A stretch of 32,462 nucleotides of DNA, from the NCBI GenBank assembly GCA_024239015.1, contig JANBVM010000003.1:1-32462 (forward strand), written 5' to 3'. Source of the stretch: Patescibacteria group bacterium. Its GTDB lineage: Bacteria; Patescibacteriota; Minisyncoccia; Minisyncoccales; JANBVM01. This document shows positions 10,288 through 30,194 of this stretch, piece by piece. Under the pieces are notes generated by a model that was not told the DNA's origin, did not search any database, and saw nothing but the letters and a program-made list of their open reading frames with translations. How positions within the stretch are numbered: the first letter of the stretch is position 1; each line of letters starts with the position of its first letter. The position numbers and the translations under genes were made by a program.

Positions 10288-10358
10288 TGCGGGGTCGTCC
10301 AATGGTAGGACGGAAGCCTTTGGAACTTCTAATCTAGGTTCGAATCCTAGCCCCGCAG
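10288..10358 (+). tRNA. tRNA-Gln (anticodon TTG)
   Basis: Acceptor TGCGGGG/CCCCGCA pairs fully; D-arm GTCC..GGAC; anticodon loop CTTTGGA (T33 then TTG); T-arm CTAGGTTCGAATCCTAG. One C31-A39 mismatch in the anticodon stem. Confidence 0.87.
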
Positions 10359-10386
10359 CAACCTTGAGCGCGGTTCGAGAGACCGA
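10357..10386 (+). repeat. Copy 1 of 30-nt hairpin repeat, starting at the tRNA-Gln 3' end
   Basis: AGCAACCTTGAGCGCGGTTCGAGAGACCGA; identical to the copy at 27932-27961 except one base. Confidence 0.85.
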
Positions 10387-11587: not shown

Positions 11588-11592
11588 ATAAT

Positions 11593-11835
11593 ATGTTAAA
11601 GCCTAACAAGTACACAAGCGTAGATTTATCTGTTTTGTTTGTAAGCTACGAATTACTCAAGATATTTAAATCTCGTAAGGTTATAGCTTATTCAGATTTA
11701 TTAAATCAGGTCTTGAGCGTAAGAGGAGAGAATACACGAAAACTGTTTCTTCCTGCTTTAAGCTTTTTATATTTACTCGGCAGAATTGAGTATCATAAAA
11801 AAGAGGATGTAATAGAATTTAAACATGAAAATTAG
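11593..11835 (+). CDS. Small ABC-three-component middle component (MC6-like)
   Basis: 80-aa protein between SMEK and DUF2326 genes; LLPALSFLYLLGRIEY...DVIEF resembles MC6-type winged-helix middle components. Overlaps the next ORF start. Confidence 0.68.
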   Translation: MLKPNKYTSVDLSVLFVSYELLKIFKSRKVIAYSDLLNQVLSVRGENTRKLFLPALSFLYLLGRIEYHKKEDVIEFKHEN

Positions 11836-13591
11836 CAAAATATATTCAAACGATCCAAGAATGAAACCCATTCTTTTTAGGCCAGGCTTCAATGTTGTGT
11901 ATGGAGATGTTGAAAAGAAATCTGCAATCAAGAACGAACACAACATAGGGAAAACACTCCTTGTTGATTTAATCGATTTTTTATTATTGAAGCGTACGAG
12001 TAAAAAAAATAGACTGTTTAAATATAAAGATAAACTTGGGGGTTGGTGTTTTTTCATGGAACTTGAATTAGAAAAAGGAAAATTTCTAACGATCAAAAGA
12101 TCTCTAGACAGTTCTTCTTTAGCGTCCTTTAAACTCCACTCCAAGAAAAACCAAGATTTTTCGAATGAAATCGTCTGGGATGAGAAGGACACTAAGTTGT
12201 ACGCCAAGAAGTCAAAAGACTCATTGACGATCTTGGAGGATTTATTAGGTTTTGACGTATTGCAAAATTATTCAGTTCGTTTCTTTTTATCCTATCTCTT
12301 GCGCACCCAATATGATTACAGTGATGTATTCAAAATGCCTGAATTTCAAGGGCTAGACGTGGACTGGAAACCACCTCTCTTTAGTTTGTTGGGTTTTGAA
12401 GAAAAATACGTAATTGAAAAATATAGAATTCAGTATGAAATAGATAATAACCAAAGAATACTTAAAACGGTCTTAGGTAGTAAAAAAGATAGTAGCGGTG
12501 AAGCTTACGTATTAAAAGCTGCGATAACAGAGAAAGAGCGTGAAAAAATGCAGGTAAGTCAGCAAGTTGATAAGTTCGACTTTTATTTGAAAGAACAAAA
12601 GTTAAATAAACAATTAATAGAAGAAGTTGAAACTAAGATTAGTAAATTAAATTCTGAAAGATACAGACTTGACTATGAAATAAACAGGATAAAAGAAGCC
12701 TTAAGAGAGAAGGTGATCTTTAGTATTGATGATGTGCAAAAGGTGTTTGAAGATGTGAAAATTTATTTTCCTGAAAAAATGAAGAAAGATTACGATGATC
12801 TAATAAAATTTAATTTAAGTATTTCTAAAGAGAGATCTAAATATTTGCATGAAGATTTAGAAGCATATGCTGAATATCTATCTGATGTCACGTCAGAATT
12901 AAAGAAGTTGAACCAGCAAAAAGAGGAAGACCTCTCTTTCTTAAGAGGTACTGATACTTTTAGGAAGTATAAGCAGAATCAACAAGATTTATTTGGGCTA
13001 GAAGAGCAAATAAATCAATACAAAGCAAGATTGGATTCTTTAGGGACAGCCGAAAATTATGAGAAAAAAATCGAAGTTCTTAGAGAAGAATCTAAAGATG
13101 TCGCAAAAAGTCTAAAGAAAGTCATAGACGCTGGGAATAGAATACACGGTAAAATTTCAGCTATATTTACAGATATATTTAAAAAGACAATGCACGGTAG
13201 TGCATTACTTGTTGTGAGACCTAATAATGCTGGCAATCCTGAATTTGAAAGTATAACCATAAGCAAAGAAGCACAAGACGAGTTAACTGGTCAGAGCGAA
13301 GGCTATACGTCAAAAAAAGTGCAGTGTGCAGCTTTTGTGTTGTCCATCCTAAGTGTTTATAGCTCAAGAAAGTTTTATAAATTTGCCTATCACGATGGAT
13401 TGTTTGAGAGTTGGGGAAACAATCCCAAAAAGAATTTTACAAATGAAGTGAGAAAAATTTGTAAAGAAAATGATCTACAATACATAGTTAGTATGATTAA
13501 AAGCGATGTTCCTGAAGATTTTTCTTTCAACGAAGGAGAAATTATTTTAAGCTTAGACGATAAAAACAAATTACTTGGCTTTTCTTTTTAA
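11825..13591 (+). CDS. DUF2326-type ABC/SMC-like ATPase of an ABC three-component system
   Basis: MKISKIYSNDPRMKPILFRPGFNVVYGDVEKKSAIKNEHNIGKTLLVDLIDFLLLKR (Walker A variant HNIGKTLL), long central coiled coil, C-terminal FAYHDGLFESWGNNPKKNF. Confidence 0.82.
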   Translation: MKISKIYSNDPRMKPILFRPGFNVVYGDVEKKSAIKNEHNIGKTLLVDLIDFLLLKRTSKKNRLFKYKDKLGGWCFFMELELEKGKFLTIKRSLDSSSLASFKLHSKKNQDFSNEIVWDEKDTKLYAKKSKDSLTILEDLLGFDVLQNYSVRFFLSYLLRTQYDYSDVFKMPEFQGLDVDWKPPLFSLLGFEEKYVIEKYRIQYEIDNNQRILKTVLGSKKDSSGEAYVLKAAITEKEREKMQVSQQVDKFDFYLKEQKLNKQLIEEVETKISKLNSERYRLDYEINRIKEALREKVIFSIDDVQKVFEDVKIYFPEKMKKDYDDLIKFNLSISKERSKYLHEDLEAYAEYLSDVTSELKKLNQQKEEDLSFLRGTDTFRKYKQNQQDLFGLEEQINQYKARLDSLGTAENYEKKIEVLREESKDVAKSLKKVIDAGNRIHGKISAIFTDIFKKTMHGSALLVVRPNNAGNPEFESITISKEAQDELTGQSEGYTSKKVQCAAFVLSILSVYSSRKFYKFAYHDGLFESWGNNPKKNFTNEVRKICKENDLQYIVSMIKSDVPEDFSFNEGEIILSLDDKNKLLGFSF

Positions 13592-13924: not shown

Positions 13925-14701
13925 TTAGTAAATACTATAAACTACTTCATCGTCAAGAATTATCTCTTCGCTCTGCCATCCTTCTGATTTATCCCAATTT
14001 AACGTAACAAACCAGTTACTTCTTATCATGGCACCAAAAGAATTTTGGGCATCAACATAAGAAACAACCCTGAAGCGATTTTTTAATGCTGGCTCGTCTT
14101 CGTGGGCCGGAACGTCAGGTAGGGAAATAATCCTAGGTTCGCCTTCAAAGACTCCGGGAAACTTAGCCGTTGAGGGAGATTTTAAGAAAGCTTTTACAAA
14201 CTTTTTTGCTATAATACCGGCTTGACCTTCAGTAGGCTTGCTTTCTTGCCCTTGATTGGATTGAGACGATGGAGAACTTGGTTTGGAATCATTTGTAAGC
14301 CCCGATTTAAAGATAAAGATTATCAGAATAATCAGGAAGGTTAAAACTACCGGATTACTTTTCTTTTTAGAAGGTTTTTCTAATACTGCTTGTTCAGGAA
14401 TTTCTGATAATGGTTTTTCTTGGTCTCCTCTTTGGTTTTGTTTAACCTGTCCGAACTCTCGTTTTGATTGGTAGATAGCGTCACGGAGTTTGTTTTGGTC
14501 GTTTGCCTTGACTGGTATTTTGATTCTTTTTCCCGCAGTTGTTTCAATAGTTACTTGTCCAAGAAATCTTGATGTTTCTACAGATACAATGTGATTGATT
14601 GCAATAGTCTTCTCGCCGCTCAAAATTAACTTGTAAGCCACATAATCAGGATAAACGCTTATCCTGGAGCCTGTTTGAGATGTTTCAAATAAAGGTTTCA
14701 T
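13925..14701 (-). CDS. Membrane-anchored protein with N-terminal PH-like region and lipoprotein-like C-terminal domain
   Basis: N-terminus ISVYPDYVAYKLILSGEKTIAINHIVSVE (bacterial PH-like), TM NPVVLTFLIILIIFIFKSGL, C-terminus FVKAFLKSPSTAKFPGV...YVDAQNSFGAMIRSNWFVTL. Confidence 0.6.
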   Translation of the reverse strand: MKPLFETSQTGSRISVYPDYVAYKLILSGEKTIAINHIVSVETSRFLGQVTIETTAGKRIKIPVKANDQNKLRDAIYQSKREFGQVKQNQRGDQEKPLSEIPEQAVLEKPSKKKSNPVVLTFLIILIIFIFKSGLTNDSKPSSPSSQSNQGQESKPTEGQAGIIAKKFVKAFLKSPSTAKFPGVFEGEPRIISLPDVPAHEDEPALKNRFRVVSYVDAQNSFGAMIRSNWFVTLNWDKSEGWQSEEIILDDEVVYSIY

Positions 14702-14938: not shown

Positions 14939-16264
14939 CTATTTTTCCAGATAAATCATTTTATCCTTGAGTACTAGCTTTGTCTTTAAGCGGGAAAGAA
15001 GTTCTCTTTTTTCTACGATAGAACCTTCCTTTAAAAGGTATTTTGCGTAGATCTTGGCATTTATTTTATCTTTGGCTTCAGCTTGCTTTTTTATTCCAAG
15101 AACTGAGGATCTGAATTTGTTATACCTTTCTACTTCTTTTTCTATTCCTTCTTCCATACCAAGCTTGTCCAAGCTAACCTTGTCTATGATGCTTAGCAGC
15201 TGCTCAATCAATCCTTCTTCTCTAATGTATCCTGATTTACATTCAATGTCCCTACTTCTAGTACAGCCATAATACACATACCTTTTAGTGGTTCCATCAC
15301 TAAGCTTTTTAAATTTTTCATCTGCGCTAACCCCAGAGTCACACAATCCACATTTAAGTAATCTGGTGAAGGCAAATTCTTTACTTTGAGCTCTTACTAT
15401 ATTGTCTCTGGTAAGCCTATCCTGAACTTTCTCAAACAACTCTTTGGTTATAATCGGGGTATGTTTACCCGTATACCAGTTTCCACTCCCGCGAGGATAT
15501 TCAAAGACTCCATAATAGAAGGTGTTTTTAAGAATGAGATATATATTGCTCAAACTCAGAGGTTTTCCATTCTTGGTTTTAAAATTAGTATCTCTCAACC
15601 ATTGGTATAGTTTTCTGCCGCTCCATTCTTCATGAATAACTTTCTCAAACATTTTTTTAATAACCGGTGCGCGCTTTGGATCAACTAATACATAGCCCTT
15701 TCTATCTGTCCTTTTTTCGTTTAGGTAGCCCGTTGGCGCTGTTGATGACCAAAGACCCATCTCTGCCTTAGCCCTTAAGCCTCGTTTAACATTTTGGCTT
15801 TTGTTATCGTTTTCAAGCTTGGCCTGACTCCCAAGAATCATTAGTAGAAATTTTTCATTAGGCGAGTCACTAAATTTTTGACTATAAGTTCTGATGGCGA
15901 GAAGTATTTTCTGGTCCATTAGATCTACTAATGCTCCCAAGTCACCTGCATTTCTACTTAGTCTATCTGGTGCCCACGTAAGAATAGCGTTGAACTTACC
16001 GACCTCTATATCTTTGAGCATTTGGTTATAAACAGGCCTTAATCCTACCGCTTTGGCAGAATGGCTTTCTTTTCGTATTTCAACCACATCGAGCTTCTCT
16101 CGTTCTGCTATCTTGAGCATTTCTTTAATCTGCGAATCAATGGAAAGCGCCTGAAGTTCATCAGATTCAGTTGATTTTCTGGCATATAGGCAGTAGCGGG
16201 TGATAGGGATTTGAGATGCTTCTTTACTTTTGTTTTGGGTATCTGTGAGGGTTGTATTCATCAT
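14939..16264 (-). CDS. Large serine recombinase (resolvase + recombinase + zinc ribbon)
   Basis: RYCLYARKSTESDELQALSIDSQIKEM...ILTWAPDRLSRNAGDLGALVDLMD (serine recombinase catalytic domain); zinc ribbon LLKCGLCDSGVSADEKFKKL...YYGCTRSRDIECKSGYIRE. Confidence 0.93.
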   Translation of the reverse strand: MMNTTLTDTQNKSKEASQIPITRYCLYARKSTESDELQALSIDSQIKEMLKIAEREKLDVVEIRKESHSAKAVGLRPVYNQMLKDIEVGKFNAILTWAPDRLSRNAGDLGALVDLMDQKILLAIRTYSQKFSDSPNEKFLLMILGSQAKLENDNKSQNVKRGLRAKAEMGLWSSTAPTGYLNEKRTDRKGYVLVDPKRAPVIKKMFEKVIHEEWSGRKLYQWLRDTNFKTKNGKPLSLSNIYLILKNTFYYGVFEYPRGSGNWYTGKHTPIITKELFEKVQDRLTRDNIVRAQSKEFAFTRLLKCGLCDSGVSADEKFKKLSDGTTKRYVYYGCTRSRDIECKSGYIREEGLIEQLLSIIDKVSLDKLGMEEGIEKEVERYNKFRSSVLGIKKQAEAKDKINAKIYAKYLLKEGSIVEKRELLSRLKTKLVLKDKMIYLEK

Positions 16265-16395: not shown

Positions 16396-17862
16396 CTAAA
16401 ATTCTCGGTCTAGGAGTCCAGCGAGAATCGGTCTTTGTCCTGTTCCCTGCGAGGGAAATCCGCTTGAAGTATAATCTGACTCTTCGATAATCTTTCCAAT
16501 AAGTAGCGCAAAAGCATCAGCCAAATCATCATATTTTTCTGATCCAAACCCTAAGAGCTGTTGTATCAACTGCTTGTTTCCCTCTCTATGAAACAAAACC
16601 TTTCCTTGTTTTAAATACGGAGTGGTGATAGACAGTCTAGCTTTTTTATCTTGACCCATAAGAGGAATCCCTTTAGCCGGATAACCTTCGTTTTCAAGTT
16701 GCTGAATAAGAGATTTCTGATAACCAACGTCTTCTATATAAATGTAGTGCGGTTTACCAGCTGAGGCATATATCTCTTTTATTCTTTCCGTTGTCTCAGG
16801 AAAAGTTAATCTTTCATTTACTGGAAAGGGGAGTATATATATTTTTAATTTTCCTCTTTCTCTACACACTCTGGCAGATACCATGGCTGTAAAGTGAGCG
16901 CTGGATTTCTGGGAAATAGCTAAATCTAAAGCAGTAGCTGAATAGAGATATTGAACTTCTTCTTTCTCTGTGTCAGGCAATTCATCATAATAAGTTATCC
17001 AATCAGGATGTATAACTCTGTCTGCATCCGGAACTATCTTTAACATATATTCCCTTTGCCAGGTTGCTTCATCTCCAATCTTCCTCTTTTCGGCATTTAC
17101 AGCCTGCTCGTCCGGGAATTTACTTCTCCATAAGGCATTTTCTCGGTCCATAAATGGGTATTCTTTATATAGTCCGTCTAACCGATCTTCTTTTATTCCT
17201 CTCTTGATGCGCATTAATGGTGAATCTTCGTGCAGGAGGTTACCTATAATAATTAATCTTGTGTTCTGATCTCCAGATGGAATTACATCACCTGTAAGCC
17301 AGGCATATGTTTTATCCCGATTCTCTTTAGTTCTTATTGAATCTAAATCCTCAATGTCGTCGCAGATAATGAGGTCTGGTCTGTGTTCTCCGTGTTTCAA
17401 CCCTCTGATGCTCTGCTCAACCGAAGCAACAGAAATCCGCGCCTTATACCTAGGTATTACAAGGGAAGACGAACCCCATTGATTAGTCTGTTCCTTGAAA
17501 GGACCCAGGTCTGCTCGTAATAAATCATTGTTTTCAAGCTCTTCTCTCAAATTTGCTAAGTGTTGATGCACTTGCCTTTGAGTTTGGCTGAGAATAACAA
17601 CGTATTTCTTTTGCTGTTCTCCAAGGATTGCCCAAATAGGGTAGGAGAGAGTAAAAATGGTTGATTTAGCTGAACCTCTGAAAGCTACCATGACAAGAGT
17701 TTTGATCTTTGTATTTTCACTCAAAGCAAACATTTCTTTCTGGAATTTAGCGGTTTGGTGTTTCACGTGTAACTTGAGATACATATTGAAAAACCAGTAA
17801 TGACTCCTTTTCCCAAGCTCCCGCCTGAGTCTTGGGTTTCTAATTATCTTATCTATATTCAT
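16396..17862 (-). CDS. Phage terminase large subunit-like protein
   Basis: Walker A-like AFRGSAKSTIFTLSYPIW, Walker B LIICDDIEDLDS, nuclease-domain acidic motifs ATALDLAISQKSSAHFTAMV, YIEDVGYQKSLIQQL, YDDLADAFALLI. Confidence 0.88.
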   Translation of the reverse strand: MNIDKIIRNPRLRRELGKRSHYWFFNMYLKLHVKHQTAKFQKEMFALSENTKIKTLVMVAFRGSAKSTIFTLSYPIWAILGEQQKKYVVILSQTQRQVHQHLANLREELENNDLLRADLGPFKEQTNQWGSSSLVIPRYKARISVASVEQSIRGLKHGEHRPDLIICDDIEDLDSIRTKENRDKTYAWLTGDVIPSGDQNTRLIIIGNLLHEDSPLMRIKRGIKEDRLDGLYKEYPFMDRENALWRSKFPDEQAVNAEKRKIGDEATWQREYMLKIVPDADRVIHPDWITYYDELPDTEKEEVQYLYSATALDLAISQKSSAHFTAMVSARVCRERGKLKIYILPFPVNERLTFPETTERIKEIYASAGKPHYIYIEDVGYQKSLIQQLENEGYPAKGIPLMGQDKKARLSITTPYLKQGKVLFHREGNKQLIQQLLGFGSEKYDDLADAFALLIGKIIEESDYTSSGFPSQGTGQRPILAGLLDREF

Positions 17863-18281
17863 TTTTCTTTTTCCTCCTTTAATTGTTTATTATCGAAACC
17901 TTTTGTATTAAGAGAGGCCAGACTTAGAGCCTCTTTAATGAGTGCTTCCTCCTCTGGGGTTAGTTCTTCGTCCTGGATTCTAAGTTTAGCCGTGATTTCT
18001 AAGTGATTGCCGTAGGTTCCATGGTGATGCCTCAACCAGAACGTTATAGCGCTCAAATTTTGGTCCTTAATAGCCGAGATCAGCTGACTCTCGGCTAAAT
18101 CATTGACCAGTAGTAAGCCCTGCTGAATCGCTTTGTCTGTCTCTTTTTTAAACTCAGGATCTTCTTTTCTCCATCGGTAGTAAGTGGCCCTTCCAACACC
18201 AGTTTTCTCGCATATAATCTGGACGATCGGTGTTTGGCTGAGGCGGTCTATTATTAGCTTTTTAGTCTTATCTTTTTTCAT
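17859..18281 (-). CDS. Terminase small subunit-like HTH protein
   Basis: IVQIICEKTGVGRATYYRWRKEDPEFKKETDKAIQQGLLLVNDLAESQLISAIKDQNLSAITFWLRHHHGTYG; overlaps the terL start by 4 bp. Confidence 0.75.
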   Translation of the reverse strand: MKKDKTKKLIIDRLSQTPIVQIICEKTGVGRATYYRWRKEDPEFKKETDKAIQQGLLLVNDLAESQLISAIKDQNLSAITFWLRHHHGTYGNHLEITAKLRIQDEELTPEEEALIKEALSLASLNTKGFDNKQLKEEKEK

Positions 18282-19603
18282 GACTGTATCTTTTTAGTTT
18301 TCTTACCGGTTAACCTTTCCCATCTTCGCTTGATAACTTCGCAATACACATTTGATAATTCCATCAGATAACATCTCCTCTGCATTTTTTCTGATGCAAT
18401 AAGTGTTGATCCACTTCCACCAAATGGTTCTATAATTAAATTGTTCCTTTTAGTTAAAACTTTGATGTAGGGGATAAGTATCTCCACTGGTTTGCAGCCA
18501 AAAACAACTCCTTGTCCTGAGCTTTTGGCGTCGTCAGCCTTAAACTGTATAAAGTCTGTAGGGCAAATCTTTTTGCCCTTTTTGTATCCTTCCCAGTGTG
18601 GTCTACCGCCAATTGCATACAGTGCAGTCTCATACTCGTTCTGCAATAATTCATCTTCATCTTCCATGTTCAAATCAATATTCCCTGAAGTACCTGCCAT
18701 GGCTATATCATGCTTACTGAAGAATCTATATTTAGCTGCGAACCCTTGAGTTCTATTAGGAAGGTTCCAGACAATCATATTCCTGACCTTCCAATGTTTT
18801 TCCATCTCGCCCCAGACTTCTCTGATGTTCTTCCAATTTTCAAAAACAATAATATTAAAATCTTGTTTTTGAATCTTACTGATATTAGCCATCCATTTTT
18901 CAGTAAAGTCATCCGGTAGAACATCTGTTTCAAGATACTTCCTATTTCTACGGAATCCAAACCCAGGAGCCTTGCCCTTATACTTAGTTTTTAGATATTC
19001 AAGCCGATAGGGCGGATCTGTAAAGCAGAAATCTGCTTTTTGTCCATCCATTAGTTTTAGGACGTCATCTTTTTGGGTCGAATTGCCACACATTAATTTG
19101 TGGTTTCCTAACTGATAGATATCTCCTTTTTTCACTTTCACTTTTTTAATATCCAGTTTTCTTAGCTCTTTCTCCAGATCAAATTCTTCCGGCATAGATT
19201 CGATAGGGAAGATATCGTCTAACTCTTCACTGTGGAATCCTATATCAGATAAGAAATTTTCATCAAATTTGCCCAAAAGCTCCAAGTCCCATTCTCCGGT
19301 GTTTTTATTTAGCCTAAGGTTTAACTCTTTTTCTTTTTCAATGTCTGATATGTTTATGTACAACACAGGAATCTCCTCATAGCCAAAATCTTTAGCCACC
19401 TTGAGCCTGAAATGGCCTCCTATTACTACATCCTTTCTGTTGGGAGCCGAGTTACAGATTACAGGCTTGAGCAATCCAAACTTCTTTATGCTTTCTTTTA
19501 AATCTGCCGTTGCTTTATCTGACCACTTTCTAGGATTGTATGTTGACGGCTTGAGCTGGTTTATTGGAACATAAGAAACCTTGAGGTTATTAATTTCATT
19601 CAT
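18278..19603 (-). CDS. ParB-like N-terminal domain fused to DNA methyltransferase (beta-class order)
   Basis: VPINQLKPSTYNPRKWSDKATADLKESIKKFGLLKPVICN...VIGGHFRLKVAKDFGYEEIPV (ParB/Srx-like); FCFTDPPYRLEYL (motif IV) precedes IIEPFGGSGSTLIASEKMQRRCYLMEL (motif I). Confidence 0.9.
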   Translation of the reverse strand: MNEINNLKVSYVPINQLKPSTYNPRKWSDKATADLKESIKKFGLLKPVICNSAPNRKDVVIGGHFRLKVAKDFGYEEIPVLYINISDIEKEKELNLRLNKNTGEWDLELLGKFDENFLSDIGFHSEELDDIFPIESMPEEFDLEKELRKLDIKKVKVKKGDIYQLGNHKLMCGNSTQKDDVLKLMDGQKADFCFTDPPYRLEYLKTKYKGKAPGFGFRRNRKYLETDVLPDDFTEKWMANISKIQKQDFNIIVFENWKNIREVWGEMEKHWKVRNMIVWNLPNRTQGFAAKYRFFSKHDIAMAGTSGNIDLNMEDEDELLQNEYETALYAIGGRPHWEGYKKGKKICPTDFIQFKADDAKSSGQGVVFGCKPVEILIPYIKVLTKRNNLIIEPFGGSGSTLIASEKMQRRCYLMELSNVYCEVIKRRWERLTGKKTKKIQS

Positions 19604-19634
19604 AGTAAATTCAAATTTAATTAATAAAACAAAA

Positions 19635-19662: not shown

Positions 19663-19683
19663 GAAAAAACCGAGGTAAAATCA

Positions 19684-19723: not shown

Positions 19724-20020
19724 GACTACTTCTTGGCGGGCCAACTAGAAGTAATATATTTCCTCAAGCCGTACGAGAAGGAAGGAGAGTTTTTTACCTA
19801 TAAGAGTTCGACAACTACTATAGTTTTACAACCACCATCTTCTCTGACAATAAGGAACCTTTATATCTAGAATAGTCTTGAAGAGAAAGACAATCTTTTT
19901 ATTTATTTGTAAACTATTTTAATCATAGGTTATCAGGAATCTCTGTCAAGTCCCTCAAGAACTTGCGTTTCTCTCCTTTCTGTGCTACAAATACCTTATT
20001 AAGGAGTTAAAACCTATCTT

Positions 20021-20659
20021 ATGCATATAGTACAGAAAAAGATATTAAAATTTCTTCAAAAAACAAAAATATCGAGCATTGGTTATTCTACGCTGGGGAG
20101 GTTTATTGAGAGTCCTCACCCTCAGAAGATAAAACATCATATTGAGCAGTTAGAGAAAAAGGGATTTATTTCTTATAACCATGAGACCAAAGCCGTAAAG
20201 GTATTAAAGGTAGTTACTTTTGATGACTATGGTTTAATTAATCTGCCTATAGTGGGAGCTGCAAATTGTGGTCCGGCAGGCTTGATAGCTGAAGAATCTT
20301 TCGAAGGCTATCTAAAGGTATCCCCGGAAATTTTAGGAAATAAAAATCCAGACGGCTTATTTGTTATAAAGGCAGAGGGAAACTCTCTCAATGATGCAAA
20401 AATCCCGGGTGGAACTGTAGAGGATGGGGATTACGTCGTTATTGATGGGAAAAATCGTAGTCCCTCAGATGGTGATTACGTCCTATCTGTAATTGACGAT
20501 TGCGCTAATCTTAAAAGATTCTACAGAAAAGGAGATCAGATCATATTAATGTCCAAATCAAAATCAGACATACCTCCCATTTATATTCATTCCAAGGATT
20601 TTCCAGACTATATGGTAAATGGGGTAGTGGTAAGAGTTATTAAAAAACCAAAATCTTAA
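20021..20659 (+). CDS. LexA-like S24-family repressor
   Basis: N-terminal winged-helix (QKKILKFLQKTKISSIGYSTLGRFI); cleavage-site region VGAANCGPAGLIAEESFEGYLKVS; catalytic Ser in FVIKAEGNSLNDA; Lys in VLSVIDDCANLKRF. Confidence 0.88.
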   Translation: MHIVQKKILKFLQKTKISSIGYSTLGRFIESPHPQKIKHHIEQLEKKGFISYNHETKAVKVLKVVTFDDYGLINLPIVGAANCGPAGLIAEESFEGYLKVSPEILGNKNPDGLFVIKAEGNSLNDAKIPGGTVEDGDYVVIDGKNRSPSDGDYVLSVIDDCANLKRFYRKGDQIILMSKSKSDIPPIYIHSKDFPDYMVNGVVVRVIKKPKS

Positions 20660-20713
20660 TTTAAAGTTTCGTCGATAGGCGAGGAGATACGAGAGCGTCT
20701 GTCATAAAAGAAT

Positions 20714-23626
20714 ATGAAGTCAGTAATCAATAGATTAAAGAAGGTATTTTTAGAGAGAGGTAAAGGTTCCGAAGTTGATCCTGGCTTTAAGTTACTTCCA
20801 GATAAACCAATTAAACCAGACAAACAAGAAGACATCCGTTTTGGTCATAAACAAATAATAAATACAATTTTTAAACTTATAAGATACACTGATCCTCCTC
20901 TTGCGATAGGATTATACGGTAATTGGGGTACCGGTAAAACTACGATAGTTAAATCTGTTGAGGAGCTAGTAAAACAAATCGGGTACCAGACGCTTTATTT
21001 TGATGTATGGAAGTACGAACAAGACTCACTAAGAAGACAATTTCTTATTGAGCTCGATAGAAAAGTTTTTGATAGTCGCTTACAATATGAGGCATTATTA
21101 AATCAGTCACTTTCGTGGCCGAAGAAAATTGATTTTCGCACTTATGTAAAGGAAATAAGCAAAAACATCGTTGTTAGGTCTTTGGGGATCGGTACAATAG
21201 TTCTTCTTGGTCTTTGGGGATTCTTTACTTTAACCGAATCTAAACCTTCCGTAATATTTTTATCAAATGCAGTTTTCCAGCTCGGACTTCTGGGAACGAT
21301 AATAAGTTTTATCTTAAAGTCATTTGAAGTAGTTCATGGCACGGTTCGAGAATATCGAACAGATTCTGCCGAAGGCTTTGAAGCTCATTTTAAAAATGCT
21401 TTTGAGAAAAAAGAATTAAAGGACAAAACTCTTTTTGTAATCATAGATAATCTTGATCGTGTGGAAAACTCAAAAGTAATAAGTGTATTATCTGACATAA
21501 AAACTTTTCTTACAGGTGATGATGGTGAGCAAAAGGTGGTATTCTTAATTCCGTGTGATTATGAATCCCTAAGAGTACGTCTCAGCAAACTACATGGCGA
21601 CGACTTTGACGCAGACGAGTTTTTTAGGAAATTTTTCAACTTAAGTATTCGAATTCCGAAGTTTATCGATATAGATCTTTTTAATTATATTCGTGATTTA
21701 TTAAAAGAAACGAAAGTTGAAGAATATCAAAAAAATTCTGAACTAGGAGGAGTTATTTACGCATCACTCAAGGACAATCCTAGAGAGATAAAGCAATTCA
21801 TTAACTCGCTCACTACACAGGTGTTACTTGCACGAGAGAGACAGCTTCAGGTTGTGCTCGATAGCATCGCTTTTTTGGCAAAACTTCTAGTGATACGGCA
21901 AAAGTTTCCGAAACTGTATTTAATCCTTGAAGAAGAATCCATCCGCTCTCTCGTGACTTTGGATGACGAAGACTTGGCAAAGGCCTTTAAGCGTAATTTA
22001 GTCTTTTCGGGTTGGAGTGAAGACAAGATCGCCGAGGAAATTAGGAGGTTTGAAGAGTTTAATGGTCTTACGCCAGGTATTAACGTTGACACTCTCGATG
22101 TCTTTCTTACACTTCGTCAATCAGACGAAGAAAAACAAATACCCGAATGGAAGAGTTATGTATTGGCTGCCGAGGAGAAAGAATATAACGCTGCAACAAA
22201 AATATTTTCACAAATCAAAAAGGAAAATAATCTAGCAATTTTTGACCAACTTTTAAAAGACAGGGTTGAAAGGGTGCGTATGGGTTCTGCTCTTATAAAC
22301 TTTGTCGCGATTACATTGCAAATCCTTGGGAAAAACAAAGAACCCCTGAAAGAATTTTTTGATGCTGCAGCAAATCACTTTCCATATGACATTGATTTTA
22401 ATCGTTTCTACAAGGAGTTTGACCCTCAAACAATATTTAAGTTTTGGTATTCAAACATCAGTAACACAAAAAGAGATAGAATTGTACCACCGTTTATTGC
22501 ACTATTAGAGATAATAATTGACGGAAAAACAACCGCACTAGATCAAGATTATGCCTTGTCCTTACTAACCGTAATCGCAGAGAGTCCACAAATATTCCAA
22601 AAGTATAAAAAACAAATCGGAAATCAAATATCAGATCATTTCTTTACATATCCCTACTTACTTCAATTTAGAAGTAAAAGATCACGCGAGTTGTTTGTAT
22701 TAAAAGATGCTAGCGGTAAGTTTGTCGACTCCATTGACCTTGAAGATTTTGAGAATCCCGCACAATTGAAAGAAGTTCTTCGGTTTTGGAATAGATTGAG
22801 CCTACCTACCAGTGCAATATTAAATTCGTTCAAAAAATACAGAGAATTGGTCAAGGCGACTAAGCCTGAAGATGAGAGCGAGATAAAACTAGAACTCAGC
22901 AAACAGTTTGTGCAATTTTCTAAAAATAATGCGTCGATTGTAAATAAAGAAAGTGATACTTCGACATATTCGCTTGAAATATCAGCTATAGCTGCCAGTT
23001 TCGGTAGTTTCTACGATCAGATGGATGAAACAGGTAAGAAGCAAATAATATCCGCTATCGATTACTTATCTAATTGGAAAATGAACAGTAATCGTAGCGT
23101 GATGGATTCGAAGATTAGCAATTTTATCGAATCGTCAAGCGATGAGACTTTGCGCGCGGTAAGTATGAGGCAATTGAAGGATTGGACACAAAAGCCAACG
23201 ACCGTTGAGGCCGTTTTGCGTAGAAGTCAAAAAAATCCAATAATTTTCTTAGAAAAAAAGCTATACGAAGTTCTTAGTGACGACCAAAATCAAATAGTTG
23301 TTATGGGTCTCATAAATAATGGCCTAAGTTTTTTGCCCACCATGGAGGCAATTAATTTTAATATTAGCGACAAAGAGGCTATGATCGTGGGTATCATCCA
23401 GAGGATTCCTGCGTTGAATACAGCTGATTTGGCAAAAATTATGAATGCGCTAAAAGAATTAGGCATCGGCTCTCTTAGCCACAGAGTGGATGAGCTTAAG
23501 AATCGTTTAATTGAGCAAAAGAGCAATCATCCAGCGGAAAGGGAGGATTTTAAAAAATTACTTCGACAATATAAGAAAGATAATATTTTCAATAAGGGAC
23601 AGCTTAATGATTTAGGTATTGAATAG
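20714..23626 (+). CDS. KAP-family P-loop NTPase with TM segments
   Basis: Walker A IGLYGNWGTGKTTIVKSVEELV followed by YFDVWKYEQDSLRRQFLIEL; two TM stretches between Walker A and Walker B (TLFVIIDNLDRVENSKVISVLSDIKTFL). Confidence 0.88.
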   Translation: MKSVINRLKKVFLERGKGSEVDPGFKLLPDKPIKPDKQEDIRFGHKQIINTIFKLIRYTDPPLAIGLYGNWGTGKTTIVKSVEELVKQIGYQTLYFDVWKYEQDSLRRQFLIELDRKVFDSRLQYEALLNQSLSWPKKIDFRTYVKEISKNIVVRSLGIGTIVLLGLWGFFTLTESKPSVIFLSNAVFQLGLLGTIISFILKSFEVVHGTVREYRTDSAEGFEAHFKNAFEKKELKDKTLFVIIDNLDRVENSKVISVLSDIKTFLTGDDGEQKVVFLIPCDYESLRVRLSKLHGDDFDADEFFRKFFNLSIRIPKFIDIDLFNYIRDLLKETKVEEYQKNSELGGVIYASLKDNPREIKQFINSLTTQVLLARERQLQVVLDSIAFLAKLLVIRQKFPKLYLILEEESIRSLVTLDDEDLAKAFKRNLVFSGWSEDKIAEEIRRFEEFNGLTPGINVDTLDVFLTLRQSDEEKQIPEWKSYVLAAEEKEYNAATKIFSQIKKENNLAIFDQLLKDRVERVRMGSALINFVAITLQILGKNKEPLKEFFDAAANHFPYDIDFNRFYKEFDPQTIFKFWYSNISNTKRDRIVPPFIALLEIIIDGKTTALDQDYALSLLTVIAESPQIFQKYKKQIGNQISDHFFTYPYLLQFRSKRSRELFVLKDASGKFVDSIDLEDFENPAQLKEVLRFWNRLSLPTSAILNSFKKYRELVKATKPEDESEIKLELSKQFVQFSKNNASIVNKESDTSTYSLEISAIAASFGSFYDQMDETGKKQIISAIDYLSNWKMNSNRSVMDSKISNFIESSSDETLRAVSMRQLKDWTQKPTTVEAVLRRSQKNPIIFLEKKLYEVLSDDQNQIVVMGLINNGLSFLPTMEAINFNISDKEAMIVGIIQRIPALNTADLAKIMNALKELGIGSLSHRVDELKNRLIEQKSNHPAEREDFKKLLRQYKKDNIFNKGQLNDLGIE

Positions 23627-23752
23627 GTATTAAACAAAAAAAGAGATTTGTTAAAAAAAAGCAAAAGAGAAAACCAATAAAGGAAGTAGTCAAGAGATTA
23701 GCTGAGATTTTTTTCATGCAGGTCAGGGGCCGAAAAGAGTTTAGAGATTACT

Positions 23753-24835
23753 ATGGAAATGACTTATAAATATCTCAAACCAGAATCACATTACAGCGAT
23801 CTCTACGATCGCTTTACTGTTGAAGAATGTAGAAGGATAGAAAAAAGTCTTTCTAAATTAGAATACAAGCCAAAAATAAAAGGAAATAAAAAATCAAAGA
23901 AAAAAGAAATAAAGGTAACAATTAATTTAGCCCCCATTCCTTTATATGCTATTAAGGGCGAACGATATTTTAAAAAAGCTGAAACAATAAAAGAATGGAT
24001 GGAAAGAGATAGGGGCAGGGATGAAAAATTAGAAAACACGCCACCACCTCAAAATATTTCATGTCCCTCTTGTGACTCAGAAATGGAAGTTACTATGAAA
24101 GATTTACGTATTGAATTAGATGAATCAAAAAATAGGGTATTGTTCTCCTTTGAATGTCCCTCCTGTAAGAAAAGAAAAGGAATATATGAAAACGGAGAAG
24201 GGTGGAAACCTGCTCCGGTAATGTGCCCAAAATGCAACAATGAAGTAGAAAGGGATCATAAGAGGAAAGGAAACAAGATAACTACCATTTACAAGTGTTC
24301 AGAATGTGGTCATAAAGAAAAAGAGGTTTGGGATCTTGATAAAAAAGAGCCTAAAGAAAAGCTAGACCCAGATTTTGAAAAAGACAGAAAAAGATTCTGC
24401 CTATCAGAAAAAGAAGGACAAGAATATGTTGCTTCTAAGGTAAAGCTGGAGCATATTTCAAAGATGCTGGACGAATGGAAAGAAAAACAAAAGAACAAGG
24501 AATTATACGATAAGGTTAAGAAAATAAAGAAATTAAACATTGCAGGACTCAAAAAACTCTTAACACCAACCCTAGATAAAGGAAATTATATTAAACTTGA
24601 ATTTTCAAAACCAGAAATTAAAAAAGACATAGCCATTGAATTCACTGTTCAGGATGATAAAGCTGATAGGGGAAAGCATGACAGTAGAATCCAACTGCAA
24701 AGGATTATCAAGAAAAATATTGAAAATACGAACTGGAGATTAATGAGTGAAGGGGTTAATTACAGATTAGGGATTTTATCTGGGAGACTAAGAGGATATG
24801 ATAATAAAGAAGATTTAATAAGGCTGATAATCTGA
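23753..24835 (+). CDS. Hypothetical protein with two zinc-ribbon modules
   Basis: CPSCDSEM...CPSCKK and CPKCNNE...CSECGHKEKE knuckles in a charged protein. Confidence 0.6.
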   Translation: MEMTYKYLKPESHYSDLYDRFTVEECRRIEKSLSKLEYKPKIKGNKKSKKKEIKVTINLAPIPLYAIKGERYFKKAETIKEWMERDRGRDEKLENTPPPQNISCPSCDSEMEVTMKDLRIELDESKNRVLFSFECPSCKKRKGIYENGEGWKPAPVMCPKCNNEVERDHKRKGNKITTIYKCSECGHKEKEVWDLDKKEPKEKLDPDFEKDRKRFCLSEKEGQEYVASKVKLEHISKMLDEWKEKQKNKELYDKVKKIKKLNIAGLKKLLTPTLDKGNYIKLEFSKPEIKKDIAIEFTVQDDKADRGKHDSRIQLQRIIKKNIENTNWRLMSEGVNYRLGILSGRLRGYDNKEDLIRLII

Positions 24836-24838
24836 TAT

Positions 24839-25759
24839 ATGAACGAGTATTTAATTGAACATAAAATAAAAACACTGTCCCAACTTTCGGAGCCATTCGA
24901 TTATAAAGGTTTTAATTTTAGACATTGGGATTTTAATTACAGAGATGGTTGGCTGGGAGACGCATGGGTGGCAAGGAAACTCATTATTGCTGAGAGTGCT
25001 ACAGAAGCAATTAATAGGTTTAGGAAAGAATTAATTCCTATAGTTGATTGTATTGCCTTTGTAAGCCAATGTTATACTACCGTAGAGTTAGAGTCCTTTA
25101 TGATTTTAAGGAAAAACGATAATCCTCAGATTATTTTTTTCTTAAGGCACGCATACGAATCGAAAGGAGTCCCATTGCACTTTAACGATGAGGAAAAGAG
25201 CGCCCTAGAATCGCTTGATAAATTTAAGAAAAAGCATGTATTTCGATATCTGCGGGAATCCACTAATTCTTCTACATTTTATACTAGACTAGCCATGCTC
25301 GTTGCAGCTCTTGAAGGGATTGCAGGTCAAATATTAATCAAAGGTAAAAAGTTCACGAACAAAGAATATATTAAGGAAGAAATTGTCAAAGATGACAATC
25401 TATTCCAAAAAATTTTTGCTTATGGAGAGGGAATAAGACCTCAATTGTTTCATGGGTGTGAAGTTGATCTTGGTCCAGACGATGTTAATTATGCTAGAGA
25501 GATTTATAAGAAGATTGTTAGATTCTTTAATAATAGGTTTAAAGCAAAGATTAAAGTGGATGTTCGTAATCCTCAGAGAACTCCTTTCGGGAATTACAGG
25601 GGAGGAAATGTATACTTGGAATCAAAACACAAAGAAAATAACATTAATCTTAAGAATGTTATAGAGATTTTTGAAAGAGCATTTGGATACTATGACAAAA
25701 GAGATAGGGAGATTTTTGATAAATTTTTTTCAATAATAAAAATGCCCAAAAATTACTAA
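24839..25759 (+). CDS. Hypothetical protein with C-terminal HEPN-like domain (ApeA-like architecture)
   Basis: Helical region RLAMLVAALEGIAGQILI...FAYGEGIRPQLFHGCEVD contains R-x4-H (RPQLFH) following a helix, as in HEPN RNases. Confidence 0.5.
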   Translation: MNEYLIEHKIKTLSQLSEPFDYKGFNFRHWDFNYRDGWLGDAWVARKLIIAESATEAINRFRKELIPIVDCIAFVSQCYTTVELESFMILRKNDNPQIIFFLRHAYESKGVPLHFNDEEKSALESLDKFKKKHVFRYLRESTNSSTFYTRLAMLVAALEGIAGQILIKGKKFTNKEYIKEEIVKDDNLFQKIFAYGEGIRPQLFHGCEVDLGPDDVNYAREIYKKIVRFFNNRFKAKIKVDVRNPQRTPFGNYRGGNVYLESKHKENNINLKNVIEIFERAFGYYDKRDREIFDKFFSIIKMPKNY

Positions 25760-25830
25760 TATAATTCTGGCTTAAACGTTAAAAAAAACCGATAAAATTT
25801 ATAAAGAAAATGTAAAAATATTTCAGAATT

Positions 25831-26928
25831 ATGTCAGCAATCTCTAAAAAAATAAACAATCCTGAATTAAATAAATATATTGCTAGCAATAATATTTTGA
25901 GAGCGAAAGATTTTTTACTTAAATTAATATTAGAAGATAATGATTTTAGCAAAAGCACTGACTCGTGGTCATTCTATGCAAACAAGATATCCGTTAAGTT
26001 ACACAATATAAAAACAAAAATAGATTTTTGGATAAAATTAGGAAAAACCATTGAGGAGGCTGAGATATCTCAAAAACAGTCAATATATTGGGGTGTCGTA
26101 TATTGGAAACTAGCAACACTTGATTTAGTGGACGGAGAAGAATTCCCAAAAGTTATTCAATTATTAGAACAATCATACGAGCAAGACTTAGAGTACCAAA
26201 AGAAAGATCCAAGCAACTTCCGAAGTATAAAGCTTGCCGAGCATAAGGCAAAAGGAATGGCAGCGTTTAGACTAAAGAACTTTCTTTCGTTAATTATTGA
26301 TGATGTGAACAATGCGTATGCGGTTCATCCAGAATTTAGAATCATAAGAGGCTTTTTAAGCAACAGAAAGGATAGGAGGATCATCAATCAAATTATTGTC
26401 CAGGCCTTTGATCTTCATATTGAAGATCCAAATTTTTTTAACACATTGCCATGGGAACCGTTTGATAGACTTCTCAGAAGGAACCCGTATCGTGTTCACA
26501 TTCAATCATTTTATAATGCAGCTGGTTGGTTGGTGGGAAAAAGACAGGAATTAGAAAAGAATAGTTTAGAAAAATACGGAGTTTCTTATGCGATAATGCT
26601 ACTTGCCGGCACATTAATAGAAGGAGTTCTTTTCAACTTGCCAAAAGTTAGAAGGGAAGTGTCAAGAGAGAGGGTAAAAAAGCCTACCTTGGGTTATTTA
26701 ACTCATCTCTATTTCAAGGTATACAGAAGAAGGCTTTCTAAGGAAATCGGCTTCTTTCTGTGCGTTATTAATTATATACGCAATAAAATACATCCTAGTG
26801 ATTTTGATAAAAATATCGATCGTAGAATCAATATAAATTTTGCAAGTTTTGTTTACCGGCTTGCAGAAAGATGTATTATATTACTTGCAATACGTCACAC
26901 AAGGAAAAATCCATATAAACAAACTTAG
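25831..26928 (+). CDS. Hypothetical helical protein with RNxxHP motif (possible HEPN)
   Basis: SYAIMLLAGTLIEGVLFN...FFLCVINYIRNKIHPSDF; E in one helix and RNxxHP at a later helix end is a common HEPN layout. Confidence 0.45.
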   Translation: MSAISKKINNPELNKYIASNNILRAKDFLLKLILEDNDFSKSTDSWSFYANKISVKLHNIKTKIDFWIKLGKTIEEAEISQKQSIYWGVVYWKLATLDLVDGEEFPKVIQLLEQSYEQDLEYQKKDPSNFRSIKLAEHKAKGMAAFRLKNFLSLIIDDVNNAYAVHPEFRIIRGFLSNRKDRRIINQIIVQAFDLHIEDPNFFNTLPWEPFDRLLRRNPYRVHIQSFYNAAGWLVGKRQELEKNSLEKYGVSYAIMLLAGTLIEGVLFNLPKVRREVSRERVKKPTLGYLTHLYFKVYRRRLSKEIGFFLCVINYIRNKIHPSDFDKNIDRRININFASFVYRLAERCIILLAIRHTRKNPYKQT

Positions 26929-27012
26929 GGGTGGGTAGATAGATTCTTTGCTGTTTTCTATGCTTTCTAATTTTGATTTAAGGTTTTAATTAAGAGCTTT
27001 AATGTAGACTAT

Positions 27013-27810
27013 ATGCAAACACCATGGAAAATAATTTTTGGCTATCGCCGTGAGGGAAGAGTGAGCTGTCAAGGAGCCTATGAAGAGATTTTTAGAGCTG
27101 CCTTAGCATACAAATTCAAAAATCTTCCGCTTGGTAGTGCAATTCCTGTGGACGCCCAAGTATTAACAGATTCTATTTTCAAATTAAATGCACACGACCA
27201 ACTTACAGTAGGCGGTAAACAAATAGATGGACAGAAAGTAAAAGAGTTATTTATTACAACGATATTCCTTAAATATTTGGAAGATAAATTTCCCCCCGGT
27301 AGCTTAATTTTTGTTGTTATACCGGAGAAAGAATCCTCATGCGATACTGCGATAATGGTTGTTAAGCCAGGGGCAAAGATTGACAGGTTGGACGAGAAAC
27401 AGCTCAGACTGCCTACAGAACACTTACCTTTTCTTTTCCAAATTAAAGAGTATGTTGATTATAAAAATTTAATAAGTGGCTCACTGTCTCCCTTCCGACC
27501 CATAGATGTTGAAAAACTTCAGGTGTTAGTAAAAGATTACGAAGAGATTGTTTTGGTTTATCAGAGGGATTTTTTGGATTACAAAAGCGAAGATTTAAAT
27601 GAATTCTTTAAGCTAAATACTTATTGTTATCTTATTTCTCCCTTTTTTGATTCTCAATATATACCCAAGAATTCGAGTTCAAAAAAATACGAGCCCGTAC
27701 CCATAAACAAAGATAAACATAATTATATTATCACCTTCCCGGGCAAGACGTTCTCTATAGCCGATTTTGAACGTCCAAGATTCTTAATTAAAGAAAAATA
27801 TATTCTTTAG
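27013..27810 (+). CDS. Hypothetical protein, possible PD-(D/E)XK-like fold
   Basis: SSCDTAIMVVKPGAKID...LPFLFQIKEYVDYKNL: Asp on a strand followed by Q-x-K on the next strand, with an upstream Glu-containing helix (AYEEIFRAALAYKF). Confidence 0.4.
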   Translation: MQTPWKIIFGYRREGRVSCQGAYEEIFRAALAYKFKNLPLGSAIPVDAQVLTDSIFKLNAHDQLTVGGKQIDGQKVKELFITTIFLKYLEDKFPPGSLIFVVIPEKESSCDTAIMVVKPGAKIDRLDEKQLRLPTEHLPFLFQIKEYVDYKNLISGSLSPFRPIDVEKLQVLVKDYEEIVLVYQRDFLDYKSEDLNEFFKLNTYCYLISPFFDSQYIPKNSSSKKYEPVPINKDKHNYIITFPGKTFSIADFERPRFLIKEKYIL

Positions 27811-27907
27811 CCTATTCACTGTCTCATTTGTCTCGTTTTAGCTTAAAGTGGTCCCGACCGAGACGCGTTATTCAAAACCTTCAAGATCCTTCATTTTTCC
27901 CTTAAAA

Positions 27908-27963
27908 CTTCGGTTCTAGACCGAGGATGCCAGCAACCTTGAGCTCGGTTCGAGAGACCGAGA
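27908..27963 (+). repeat. Copy 2 of hairpin repeat with upstream T-arm-like half
   Basis: CTTCGGTTCTAGACCGAGG hairpin then ATGCCAGCAACCTTGAGCTCGGTTCGAGAGACCGAGA; 29/30 match of AGCAACCTTGAGC..ACCGA to 10357-10386. Confidence 0.85.
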
Positions 27964-28003
27964 CGGATCAGAAGGTTCCAAGAACAAATCAATTATTAAG
28001 AAT

Positions 28004-28915
28004 ATGGCTATTCAGAAACAATTCGAAAAATTTTACGCGAACATTAAACTTACATCAGTCCAAAGAGAAGATGCAAGGAGGAAATATGATGGTGTTTGCA
28101 AAAAGCTACATGATAATTATTATCCTGAGATTGAATATAACGGGAGCACAAGATTACTGATTGGTTCTTATGGAAAACAAACACACATAAGACCCGCAAG
28201 AGATATCGATGTAATTTTTATAATGCCTTCAGAAAAATTTGACCAATACGATGATAATCAATCAAATTGTCAGTCTCAACTTTTGCAGGATATTAAAAAA
28301 ATTTTAGAAGAAAAATATCCAGATACTCCAATTAGAGCATCCGGAAAAGTAGTGATATTAGAATTTTCTGATAGCCAGCATCAGGTAGAGTTGCTCCCAG
28401 CGTGGGAGAATGAGGACAAAACCTTCAAAATTCCGAACTCAGAAAATGGAGGAAGTTGGGAAGGGTGGGACCCAAGATCAGAAATACAAGGAATTAAAGA
28501 CTCAGACACAAAAACCGGAGATACAAAAGCATTAATTCGAATGATTAAAAAATGGACGGAGAGATGTTCGGTGGAGATAAAATCATATAAGATAGAAAAC
28601 GAAGTATTGAATTTCTTTCATTTATCTGATTTAAAGTATCAATTTTATTCAATTTTAGTTCGAGATTTCTTTGCTTTTTTCTACGATAATGCCAGTGATG
28701 AAGATCTAAAAAGTCATCTGAAAACAGTACGCGATCGAGCTCAAAAGGCTTATTCTTTTGAAGAAGAGGGAAAAATTAATAAAGCGACCGATGAATGGAA
28801 AAAAATATTTGGTGACGATTTTCCAAAAGAAGAAGAACAGCAAAGGAATAATTTTGCTCCAAGTAATGATCAGCCTGGGCCAATAGTAAATCCTCCCAAG
28901 CCACATGGTTATTGA
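28004..28915 (+). CDS. CBASS CD-NTase (cGAS/DncV-like nucleotidyltransferase)
   Basis: RLLIGSYGKQTHIRPARDIDVIFIMP (GS..K and DxD), third acidic position in HQVELLPAW, disordered C-terminal tail ending NPPKPHGY. Confidence 0.9.
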   Translation: MAIQKQFEKFYANIKLTSVQREDARRKYDGVCKKLHDNYYPEIEYNGSTRLLIGSYGKQTHIRPARDIDVIFIMPSEKFDQYDDNQSNCQSQLLQDIKKILEEKYPDTPIRASGKVVILEFSDSQHQVELLPAWENEDKTFKIPNSENGGSWEGWDPRSEIQGIKDSDTKTGDTKALIRMIKKWTERCSVEIKSYKIENEVLNFFHLSDLKYQFYSILVRDFFAFFYDNASDEDLKSHLKTVRDRAQKAYSFEEEGKINKATDEWKKIFGDDFPKEEEQQRNNFAPSNDQPGPIVNPPKPHGY

Positions 28916-29540
28916 GCTAACGTTAGATGATATAACTTGGCTCAAGAAAAAATATCCCAAACTAAAATTTCATAGAGAAAAAAATGTGATTCGAGGTGAA
29001 TTATCTTTTAATAGAAAATATGGAAGCGTTGGGATTAAGGATTCCTATTTTCTTGAGATAAAACTGCAGAGTAAGGAGAACTCTATTTTACCTCAAGTAA
29101 AAGAATTTGGTGGGAAAATTAAAAGAATTTCGGAAAAATTAGCAAAGCCCCTAATCGATTTGCATGTTAATCCAGACGGAACTTTATGCCCGTGTATTTT
29201 TGAAAAAGAAAAAGCGTATTTCCCAACTGGTTTCAAAATGCAAGTATTCTTTGAGCAGATACTAGAACCTTATCTTTATTGGATTAGTTATACTCAAAAA
29301 TATAAAATATCTCCCTGGGAAGAATACGCTCATGGAAATTTAGGATATTTAGAATTATATGCCGAAGAATATATAAATCTTGAAAAACTAAGAGAATATT
29401 TTTCTGAGAAAGAATTACAAAAAATTAAAAAAGCAAAAGGCCATCATCAGTGTCTTTGTAAAAGAGAGAAAGAATTAAAAAATTGTCATAAATTAATTTA
29501 CAGTGCCATTTATAAATTAAAAAATGAACTCTATGGATAA
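28905..29540 (+). CDS. Standalone E2-like protein of type II-short CBASS
   Basis: DLHVNPDGTLCPCIFEKEKAYFP (E2-like catalytic Cys region), ISPWEEYAHGNLGYLELYAEE, C-terminal GHHQCLCKREKELKNCH zinc-binding-like motif; overlaps the CD-NTase by 11 bp. Confidence 0.8.
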   Translation: MVIELTLDDITWLKKKYPKLKFHREKNVIRGELSFNRKYGSVGIKDSYFLEIKLQSKENSILPQVKEFGGKIKRISEKLAKPLIDLHVNPDGTLCPCIFEKEKAYFPTGFKMQVFFEQILEPYLYWISYTQKYKISPWEEYAHGNLGYLELYAEEYINLEKLREYFSEKELQKIKKAKGHHQCLCKREKELKNCHKLIYSAIYKLKNELYG

Positions 29541-30084
29541 AACTAATTTACAAATCATAAGAGAATCATTCGGGAAAGTTGCATATTCGCATAAAACACA
29601 TGAAAAGGCAGCAGAAATAGAGGAAGGCAAAAAGAAAAAAATTAAATGGGGTAATATTTTTTTGACAACTTTTACTTCAGGAACTTTAGTCGGCAGGATC
29701 GTGACCAATGAAGCAGCTTTACTTTATATTGGTGCTGCTCTCGCTACCTTAGCTTTGGCTTTCACAATTTTTCAGCTAAGTTTCAATCCTGCAGAGAGAG
29801 CCGCAAAACATAAATCCACAGCCCAAAAACTTTGGTATATAAGAGAAAAATATGTTCATTTGATGGCAGATATAATTAATGATAGATTGAGCGAGGATTT
29901 AATTGTTGCCGAGAGAAATCAGTTAATTGAGGAATTAAAACTTATATATGAGTTTGCTCCAGGAACGGATTCAAAATCCTATCAAGAAGCAAGAAAAGCT
30001 TTAAAGATTAATGAAGAGTTGACTTTTTCGAACGAAGAAATTGATCAATTTTTACCTGATAGCTTAAGGATTGAGAAGGATTAA
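29524..30084 (+). CDS. SLATT-domain 2TM effector
   Basis: Two hydrophobic segments (WGNIFLTTFTSGTLVGRIV and EAALLYIGAALATLALAFTIFQLSF) followed by NPAERAAKHKSTAQKLWYIREKYVHLMADI, typical of SLATT; overlaps the E2-like gene. Confidence 0.85.
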   Translation: MNSMDKTNLQIIRESFGKVAYSHKTHEKAAEIEEGKKKKIKWGNIFLTTFTSGTLVGRIVTNEAALLYIGAALATLALAFTIFQLSFNPAERAAKHKSTAQKLWYIREKYVHLMADIINDRLSEDLIVAERNQLIEELKLIYEFAPGTDSKSYQEARKALKINEELTFSNEEIDQFLPDSLRIEKD

Positions 30085-30132: not shown

Positions 30133-30194
30133 AAGCAGGTTCTAGTATCGTCTGCGACCCGCAGCTATCTTGAGCTCCGTTCGAGAGACCGAGA
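30133..30194 (+). repeat. Copy 3 (diverged) of hairpin repeat
   Basis: AAGCAGGTTCTAG...AGCTATCTTGAGCTCCGTTCGAGAGACCGAGA; the segment at 30163-30192 is 27/30 identical to copy 2. Confidence 0.8.

Follow-up and report, generated by a model that had tools for sequence, protein, structure and literature searches.

The window, meaning the whole stretch of DNA that was analysed (32,462 nucleotides of contig JANBVM010000003.1, C3 in our numbering, from assembly GCA_024239015.1), belongs to a member of the Patescibacteria, or candidate phyla radiation (CPR), with a genome of 1.03 Mb, and it holds an island that spans from a tRNA-Gln gene (10288) to obg (30272). In order, the island comprises an ABC-3C system, a 258-aa protein, a LOOT RNA, a large serine recombinase (SerInt), the large and small terminase subunits (TerL, TerS), a ParB-methylase, a LexA-like repressor, five consecutive genes (20714 to 27810) that are our subject here, and an operon of the cyclic-oligonucleotide-based anti-phage signalling system (CBASS). 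The order dnaX-tRNA-Gln is kept in 9/9 relatives of the same order. Coordinates and strands in the window are as follows.

10288..10359, + strand: tRNA-Gln(TTG), left edge of the island
10363..10386, + strand: 24-nt repeat, copy 1 (1 mismatch), a candidate attachment-type site adjoining the tRNA 3' end
10619..13591, + strand: ABC-3C system (SMEK_N/CTD12; MC8; DUF2326)
13925..14701, - strand: 258-aa membrane-anchored protein, function not assigned, with a relative beside SerInt in locus L128
14785..14904, - strand: LOOT RNA (RF03000, 94.8 bits)
14939..16264, - strand: SerInt, large serine recombinase/integrase (PHROG_95, 1e-70)
16396..17862, - strand: TerL (PHROG_38, 1e-78)
17859..18281, - strand: TerS
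18278..19603, - strand: ParB-N fused to an N6/N4 DNA methyltransferase
20021..20659, + strand: LexA-like S24 repressor (Peptidase_S24, 8e-16; TIGR00498 lexA, 1e-24)
20714..23626, + strand: KAP P-loop NTPase, 970 aa, two transmembrane helices inserted; defence cargo
23753..24835, + strand: ZnR, 360 aa, tandem zinc ribbon followed by an alpha/beta domain (ferredoxin-like) at the C terminus; marks the proposed cargo slot
24839..25759, + strand: orphan protein, 306 aa, 3 bp after ZnR; motif RPQLFH, 'HEPN' label unproven
25831..26928, + strand: orphan protein, 365 aa; motif RNKIHP (R-x3-H), 'HEPN' label unproven
27013..27810, + strand: possible PD-(D/E)XK-type nuclease, 265 aa; D111 and Q143-x-K145 invariant in four relatives
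27938..27961, + strand: exact second copy of the 24-nt repeat, which parts CBASS from the five genes
28004..30084, + strand: CBASS operon (SMODS CD-NTase, 5e-31; E2-like, 6e-35; SLATT_4 effector with two transmembrane helices, 1e-51)
30169..30192, + strand: third copy of the 24-nt repeat, with 1 mismatch, beyond CBASS; marks the right edge of the island, with obg following

An earlier note on this DNA had seen in the five genes a candidate for a new defence module, made of a KAP NTPase, a zinc-ribbon protein, two HEPN-like proteins and a nuclease-like protein. They do lie, as it said, on one strand between the LexA-like gene and CBASS, with gaps of 126, 3, 71 and 84 bp, the shortest of which separates the 23753/24839 pair that it had described as only a few bases apart; ABC-3C, which it counted as a neighbour of the block, lies 7 kb off at the opposite end of the island. 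Two of its labels are borne out, since the KAP gene matches PF07693 (8e-28) and has the Walker A motif GNWGTGKT, an IIDNLDR motif and, as is typical of KAP NTPases, two transmembrane helices (152-170 and 179-197) inserted in the P-loop domain, and ZnR has four invariant CxxC pairs. The HEPN labels lack support: neither product matches a HEPN profile of Pfam, PADLOC or NCBIfam, the R-x4-H motif of gene 24839 turns up in 37% of shuffled copies of that gene, and RNKIH of gene 25831 is R-x3-H as against the R-x4-6-H by which HEPN is defined. Nor does either orphan have a credible homologue in 380 CPR genomes or in the other loci searched. As for gene 27013, a D-TA-M...FQ(I/V)KE pattern conserved in four relatives is the one basis of its nuclease-like label (the structure model, at pLDDT 47, was discarded), and its product is possibly a PD-(D/E)XK-type nuclease; among the 380 genomes it has matches in two, other than those matched by ZnR. 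Three of its relatives sit in variable regions, apart from the other four genes. No match was obtained with the first HEPN-like or the nuclease protein, searched singly, or with the nuclease alignment in viral contigs, with the nuclease in phages, or with four of the proteins in plasmids (tblastn), and sequence searches of the PDB returned nothing credible for the uncharacterised proteins other than ZnR.

Guilt by association, on which the earlier note relied, holds for KAP and ZnR while the block is not one module: no relative has all five genes, the HEPN-like pair is without homologues in the genomes and loci searched and the nuclease relatives stand apart. To our minds the observation is sound, though a module of five genes is not the right unit. 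We rather see in the block the arm that carries the cargo of an integrative element of Patescibacteria, capsid-less and resembling a phage satellite, a reading to which we give a probability of about 0.6; the true unit is probably this element of CPR bacteria, in which ZnR marks a slot for exchangeable defence genes. KAP belongs to the cargo, and the last three genes (24839, 25831, 27013) are unproven as such.

ZnR and the cargo beside it

ZnR is a CPR-wide and previously unnamed family. When the four uncharacterised proteins were joined they matched 31 of the 380 phylum genomes, nearly all via ZnR and mostly at 30-46% identity over the full length, and a contig scan with a six-row subset of the alignment (the first alignment being too diverse) found at least 80 ZnR loci in GTDB contigs, mostly from CPR. 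The tree has near-identical copies in different lineages (Portnoybacteria, Woesebacteria, a viral contig). ZnR also occurs in metagenome-assembled genomes (MAGs) labelled Woesearchaeota, Omnitrophota, Verrucomicrobia and Solirubrobacteraceae (L080, L088, L090, L095, L104, L127), and the copy in L080 is almost identical to one from Shapirobacteria, which points to misbinning or recent transfer. Read by eye from the sequence, an extra zinc and helix-turn-helix (HTH)-like domain lies in or near some members (L056, L059, the C-terminal part of L063, L049:5487-6152, L064). An AlphaFold2 model of ZnR (pLDDT 89) gives a C-terminal ferredoxin-like match, its PDB sequence matches are weak ones to zinc ribbons, with ribbons like those of NrdR/RPB9, and viral structures gave no convincing match.

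Homologues mainly outside defence contexts, or as isolated housekeeping genes, would have refuted the earlier note; those of ZnR are instead found almost wholly in mobile or defence settings. Among the 43 ZnR loci that span 15 kb or more, 31 have at least one mobility gene nearby, as opposed to 1/20 control regions, 18 of which are from ZnR-bearing genomes (p=3.6e-7); counting mobility or known defence genes together, the figures are 40/43 and 3/20. This second comparison favours ZnR loci in its defence part, since the neighbours of ZnR were the source of the defence profiles, and less so in its mobility part. Upstream of ZnR, PADLOC and Pfam identify CBASS, type I restriction-modification (R-M), type IIG with an SNF2 helicase, Hachiman, Shedu and HerA-like genes, and a type III R-M system, read from sequence, adjoins KAP-ZnR in L068. 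More than half of 20 further upstream neighbours have no Pfam match, and the remaining ones match DUF4145, PDDEXK, helicase, methyltransferase, AAA and a few unrelated families. A direct sign of cargo exchange comes from two Saccharibacteria MAGs (L102 and L103, around 9000), in which ZnR is identical and the downstream genes are the same, whereas the upstream cargo is IIG/SNF2 in one and CBASS in the other.

In 54 of 70 cases ZnR is on the same strand as its upstream gene, and about 31 of these have a gap of 21 bp or less. Position and gap length suggest that ZnR is a conserved accessory and is transcribed together with many defence systems that are unrelated to one another; judging from its zinc ribbons and modelled fold, its product most likely acts on the cargo as a regulator or licensing factor that binds nucleic acid. 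KAP itself immediately precedes ZnR in three loci (L067, L068, L130), which represent one lineage of a KAP-ZnR pair since their ZnR is near-identical, and it lies close to ZnR in L109. This pairing, along with the shared strand and short gaps of the five genes, may be taken to favour one dedicated anti-phage system in which KAP is the sensor, ZnR the adaptor and the HEPN and nuclease proteins are effectors. We consider this very unlikely, however, given that CBASS, R-M, Hachiman and Shedu are just as much partners of ZnR, that the HEPN-like genes are never found together with ZnR in other loci and that the nuclease relatives are found elsewhere.

The terminase and recombinase module

Across CPR bacteria a shared order recurs that matches the window, with SerInt-TerL-TerS-methylase running leftward and LexA-[cargo]-ZnR rightward. 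ZnR and this TerL occur together in 15 of 23 ZnR genomes (TerL being present in 40/380; p=4e-11), and in 14 of these 15 the two are on one contig within 20 kb. LOOT RNA, for which we know of no role so far, was found in 83/380 CPR genomes and in 0/14 control genomes, and it lies within 5 kb of 15 of the 47 TerL sites in the former, where 0.15 would be expected by density. It adjoins the recombinase/terminase module in the window and in L068, L073, L086, L100 and L140, and is a candidate for a functional RNA of the element. Next to it, the 258-aa protein has a transmembrane segment and a distant relative (L128:5250-5909, E=2e-12) that is also beside a recombinase.

None of the island's open reading frames (ORFs) codes for a recognisable capsid, portal or tail protein, every long one from 10619 to 30084 having been compared with Pfam and most also with PHROGs, and it is this lack that suggests a capsid-less, satellite-like element; the only phage-morphogenetic genes in the island are those for terminase. 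Around TerL in the relatives, too, there are no structural genes as judged by gene order alone. A decayed prophage might look similar, its recombinase, terminase, methylase and LexA-like genes being remnants after structural-gene loss and the defence genes having come later, and TerL, TerS, the ParB-methylase and the S24 repressor are indeed genes of phage type. Yet the capsid-less arrangement methylase-TerS-TerL is seen in about 14 TerL-bearing loci from different CPR lineages, in which SerInt or divergent genes, and no portal, come after TerL, and the ORFs of the element in the window are intact. Because the arrangement repeats across CPR lineages, independent decay to the same gene set is not to be expected, and we regard the prophage explanation as unlikely.

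Repeats, insertion site and a possible mode of action

The 24-nt repeat, CTTGAGCTCGGTTCGAGAGACCGA, is present at 10363, 27938 and 30169 (0 expected in shuffles) and elsewhere in the genome at only two places, C7:14118 (-) and C22:8402 (+). It contains a hairpin (CTCGGT...ACCGAG) and lies at the edges of defence segments, in many cases just after a tRNA 3'-like fragment. With copies at 27938 and 30169 flanking it, CBASS looks separately bounded, as if this 2.2 kb operon were a cassette that can move by itself. A search of 142 genomes from the class brought up the repeat in just one more, as a degenerate copy, which rules it out as a general CPR element. Promoter and terminator scans gave results near chance level and were not used.

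Two further observations touch on the repeat. Window positions 10406-10466 hold a tRNA 3'-like fragment and a degenerate repeat copy, which are common to a genome of the same order (L148) and there are followed by a terminator-like hairpin. In addition, the genome from which the window comes carries a second island (L009/L149, G000 C7 ~14.1-24.7 kb) with a serine recombinase of its own and the same 24-nt repeat at one edge; it holds an operon for an AAA/OLD-like ATPase, which includes a small protein that has an R-x4-H motif at its end, as well as primase-like and ATPase genes.

What the window itself displays is a site beside tRNA-Gln, with SerInt, LOOT RNA, TerL, TerS and the ParB-methylase on one strand and the LexA-like gene, the cargo and ZnR on the other. 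From these parts the following may be envisaged. The LexA-like repressor, which has its cleavage site (CG), Ser and Lys all in place, would silence the element until DNA damage or phage infection, whereupon the serine recombinase would excise it and TerS/TerL would have its DNA packaged in the heads of a helper. While resident, the cargo (membrane-anchored KAP, possibly with the two orphans and the putative nuclease) would protect the cell, probably by abortive infection, and ZnR may serve it as a nucleic-acid-binding accessory factor.

Several points weigh against such a defence-carrying satellite, besides the bias in the defence count. Excision, packaging and defence by the element are predictions from sequence, and Foldseek gave ZnR weak matches (E about 0.02). 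Of the ZnR loci sampled, about half are without a detected mobility gene, though many are cut by contig ends. The obg loci of close relatives provided no usable empty site; serine recombinases usually leave short identical cores only. Finally, 25 of the 40 TerL genomes have no ZnR match, so that ZnR is not essential to the terminase element.

The last point equally speaks against the option that ZnR is a mobility factor (a recombination directionality factor, excisionase or packaging accessory) which stands outside the defence cargo. Directly after the methylase and without cargo, as in L066, L071 and L076, or directly after TerS, as in L128, ZnR is placed where such a factor might be sought, and the apparent extra zinc/HTH domain in or beside some members would suit this role. 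Also against it, ZnR closes defence operons with near-zero gaps and is found beside R-M loci that have no detected recombinase (L092, L106, L135). On balance we find a mobility factor doubtful, though less so than prophage decay.

Known satellites and defence in CPR bacteria

Satellites that carry defence hotspots are known, among them P4 and the phage-inducible chromosomal minimalist islands (PICMI), the latter with a variable defence slot between prim and fis (PMC10803314; review PMC11389934). With P4-like elements, phage-inducible chromosomal islands (PICIs), PICI-like elements (PLEs) and PICMI our element shares an integrase, the lack of capsid genes, packaging gene(s) of its own (as in some of these families), possibly site-specific insertion, and a variable anti-phage slot, and it differs from them by its CPR host, serine recombinase, TerS plus TerL, ParB-methylase, LexA-like gene, LOOT RNA, ZnR and the lack of a known helper. 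It has several hallmarks of a satellite, namely a recombinase, no recognisable structural genes and packaging genes (TerS and TerL) of predicted activity, with the 24-nt repeats beside tRNA-Gln as candidate attachment sites. It does not have those of PICMI, whose core is int, alpA and primase by fis: the ORFs scanned gave no AlpA or primase profile, and the neighbours are dnaX/tRNA-Gln and obg. Capsid-forming PICIs (PMC10690885) likewise encode both terminase subunits but, unlike the window element, also capsid, portal, protease and connectors.

Regarding the cargo, the CBASS operon combines CD-NTase, ancillary and effector genes, as this system is defined. The KAP protein has in common with QatA of QatABCD (NF041923, PDLC02209) a KAP P-loop domain with inserted transmembrane helices (QatA profile, E=5e-21), yet the match reaches 74.9 bits where the cut-off is 600, and the island has no QatB, QatC (QueC-like) or QatD. 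Patescibacteria genomic islands with type I R-M (PMC12455944) resemble ours as horizontally acquired CPR defence islands; the accessible portion of that report does not describe a shared terminase/recombinase/ZnR element, nor do we find the element in the accessible portions of open literature on the defences or phages of CPR bacteria (PMC12259885, PMC12455944, PMC13059738).

CRISPR-Cas is rare in CPR bacteria (PMC6509639), and their defence systems are, by the accessible part of PMC12259885, few per genome and of high density. By analogy, the element may act like known defence-hotspot satellites, with mobilisation by a helper and the function of ZnR as predicted above. More tentatively, and with odds somewhat short of even, we suggest that it belongs to an undescribed, CPR-wide family of capsid-less, terminase-encoding satellites (SerInt, LOOT RNA, TerL, TerS, ParB-methylase, LexA, ZnR) that is a main shuttle of exchangeable defence systems in these minimal genomes, with ZnR as an accessory factor shared by unrelated systems. 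LOOT RNA would in this way be tied to a terminase/recombinase module. If true, ZnR would also be a marker for undiscovered defence systems, because most of its direct upstream neighbours match none of the defence profiles used here. A shuttle element with a fixed marker beside its cargo slot would offer a direct route to listing CPR defence systems, known and unknown, and would bear on how these small genomes gain and lose their defences.

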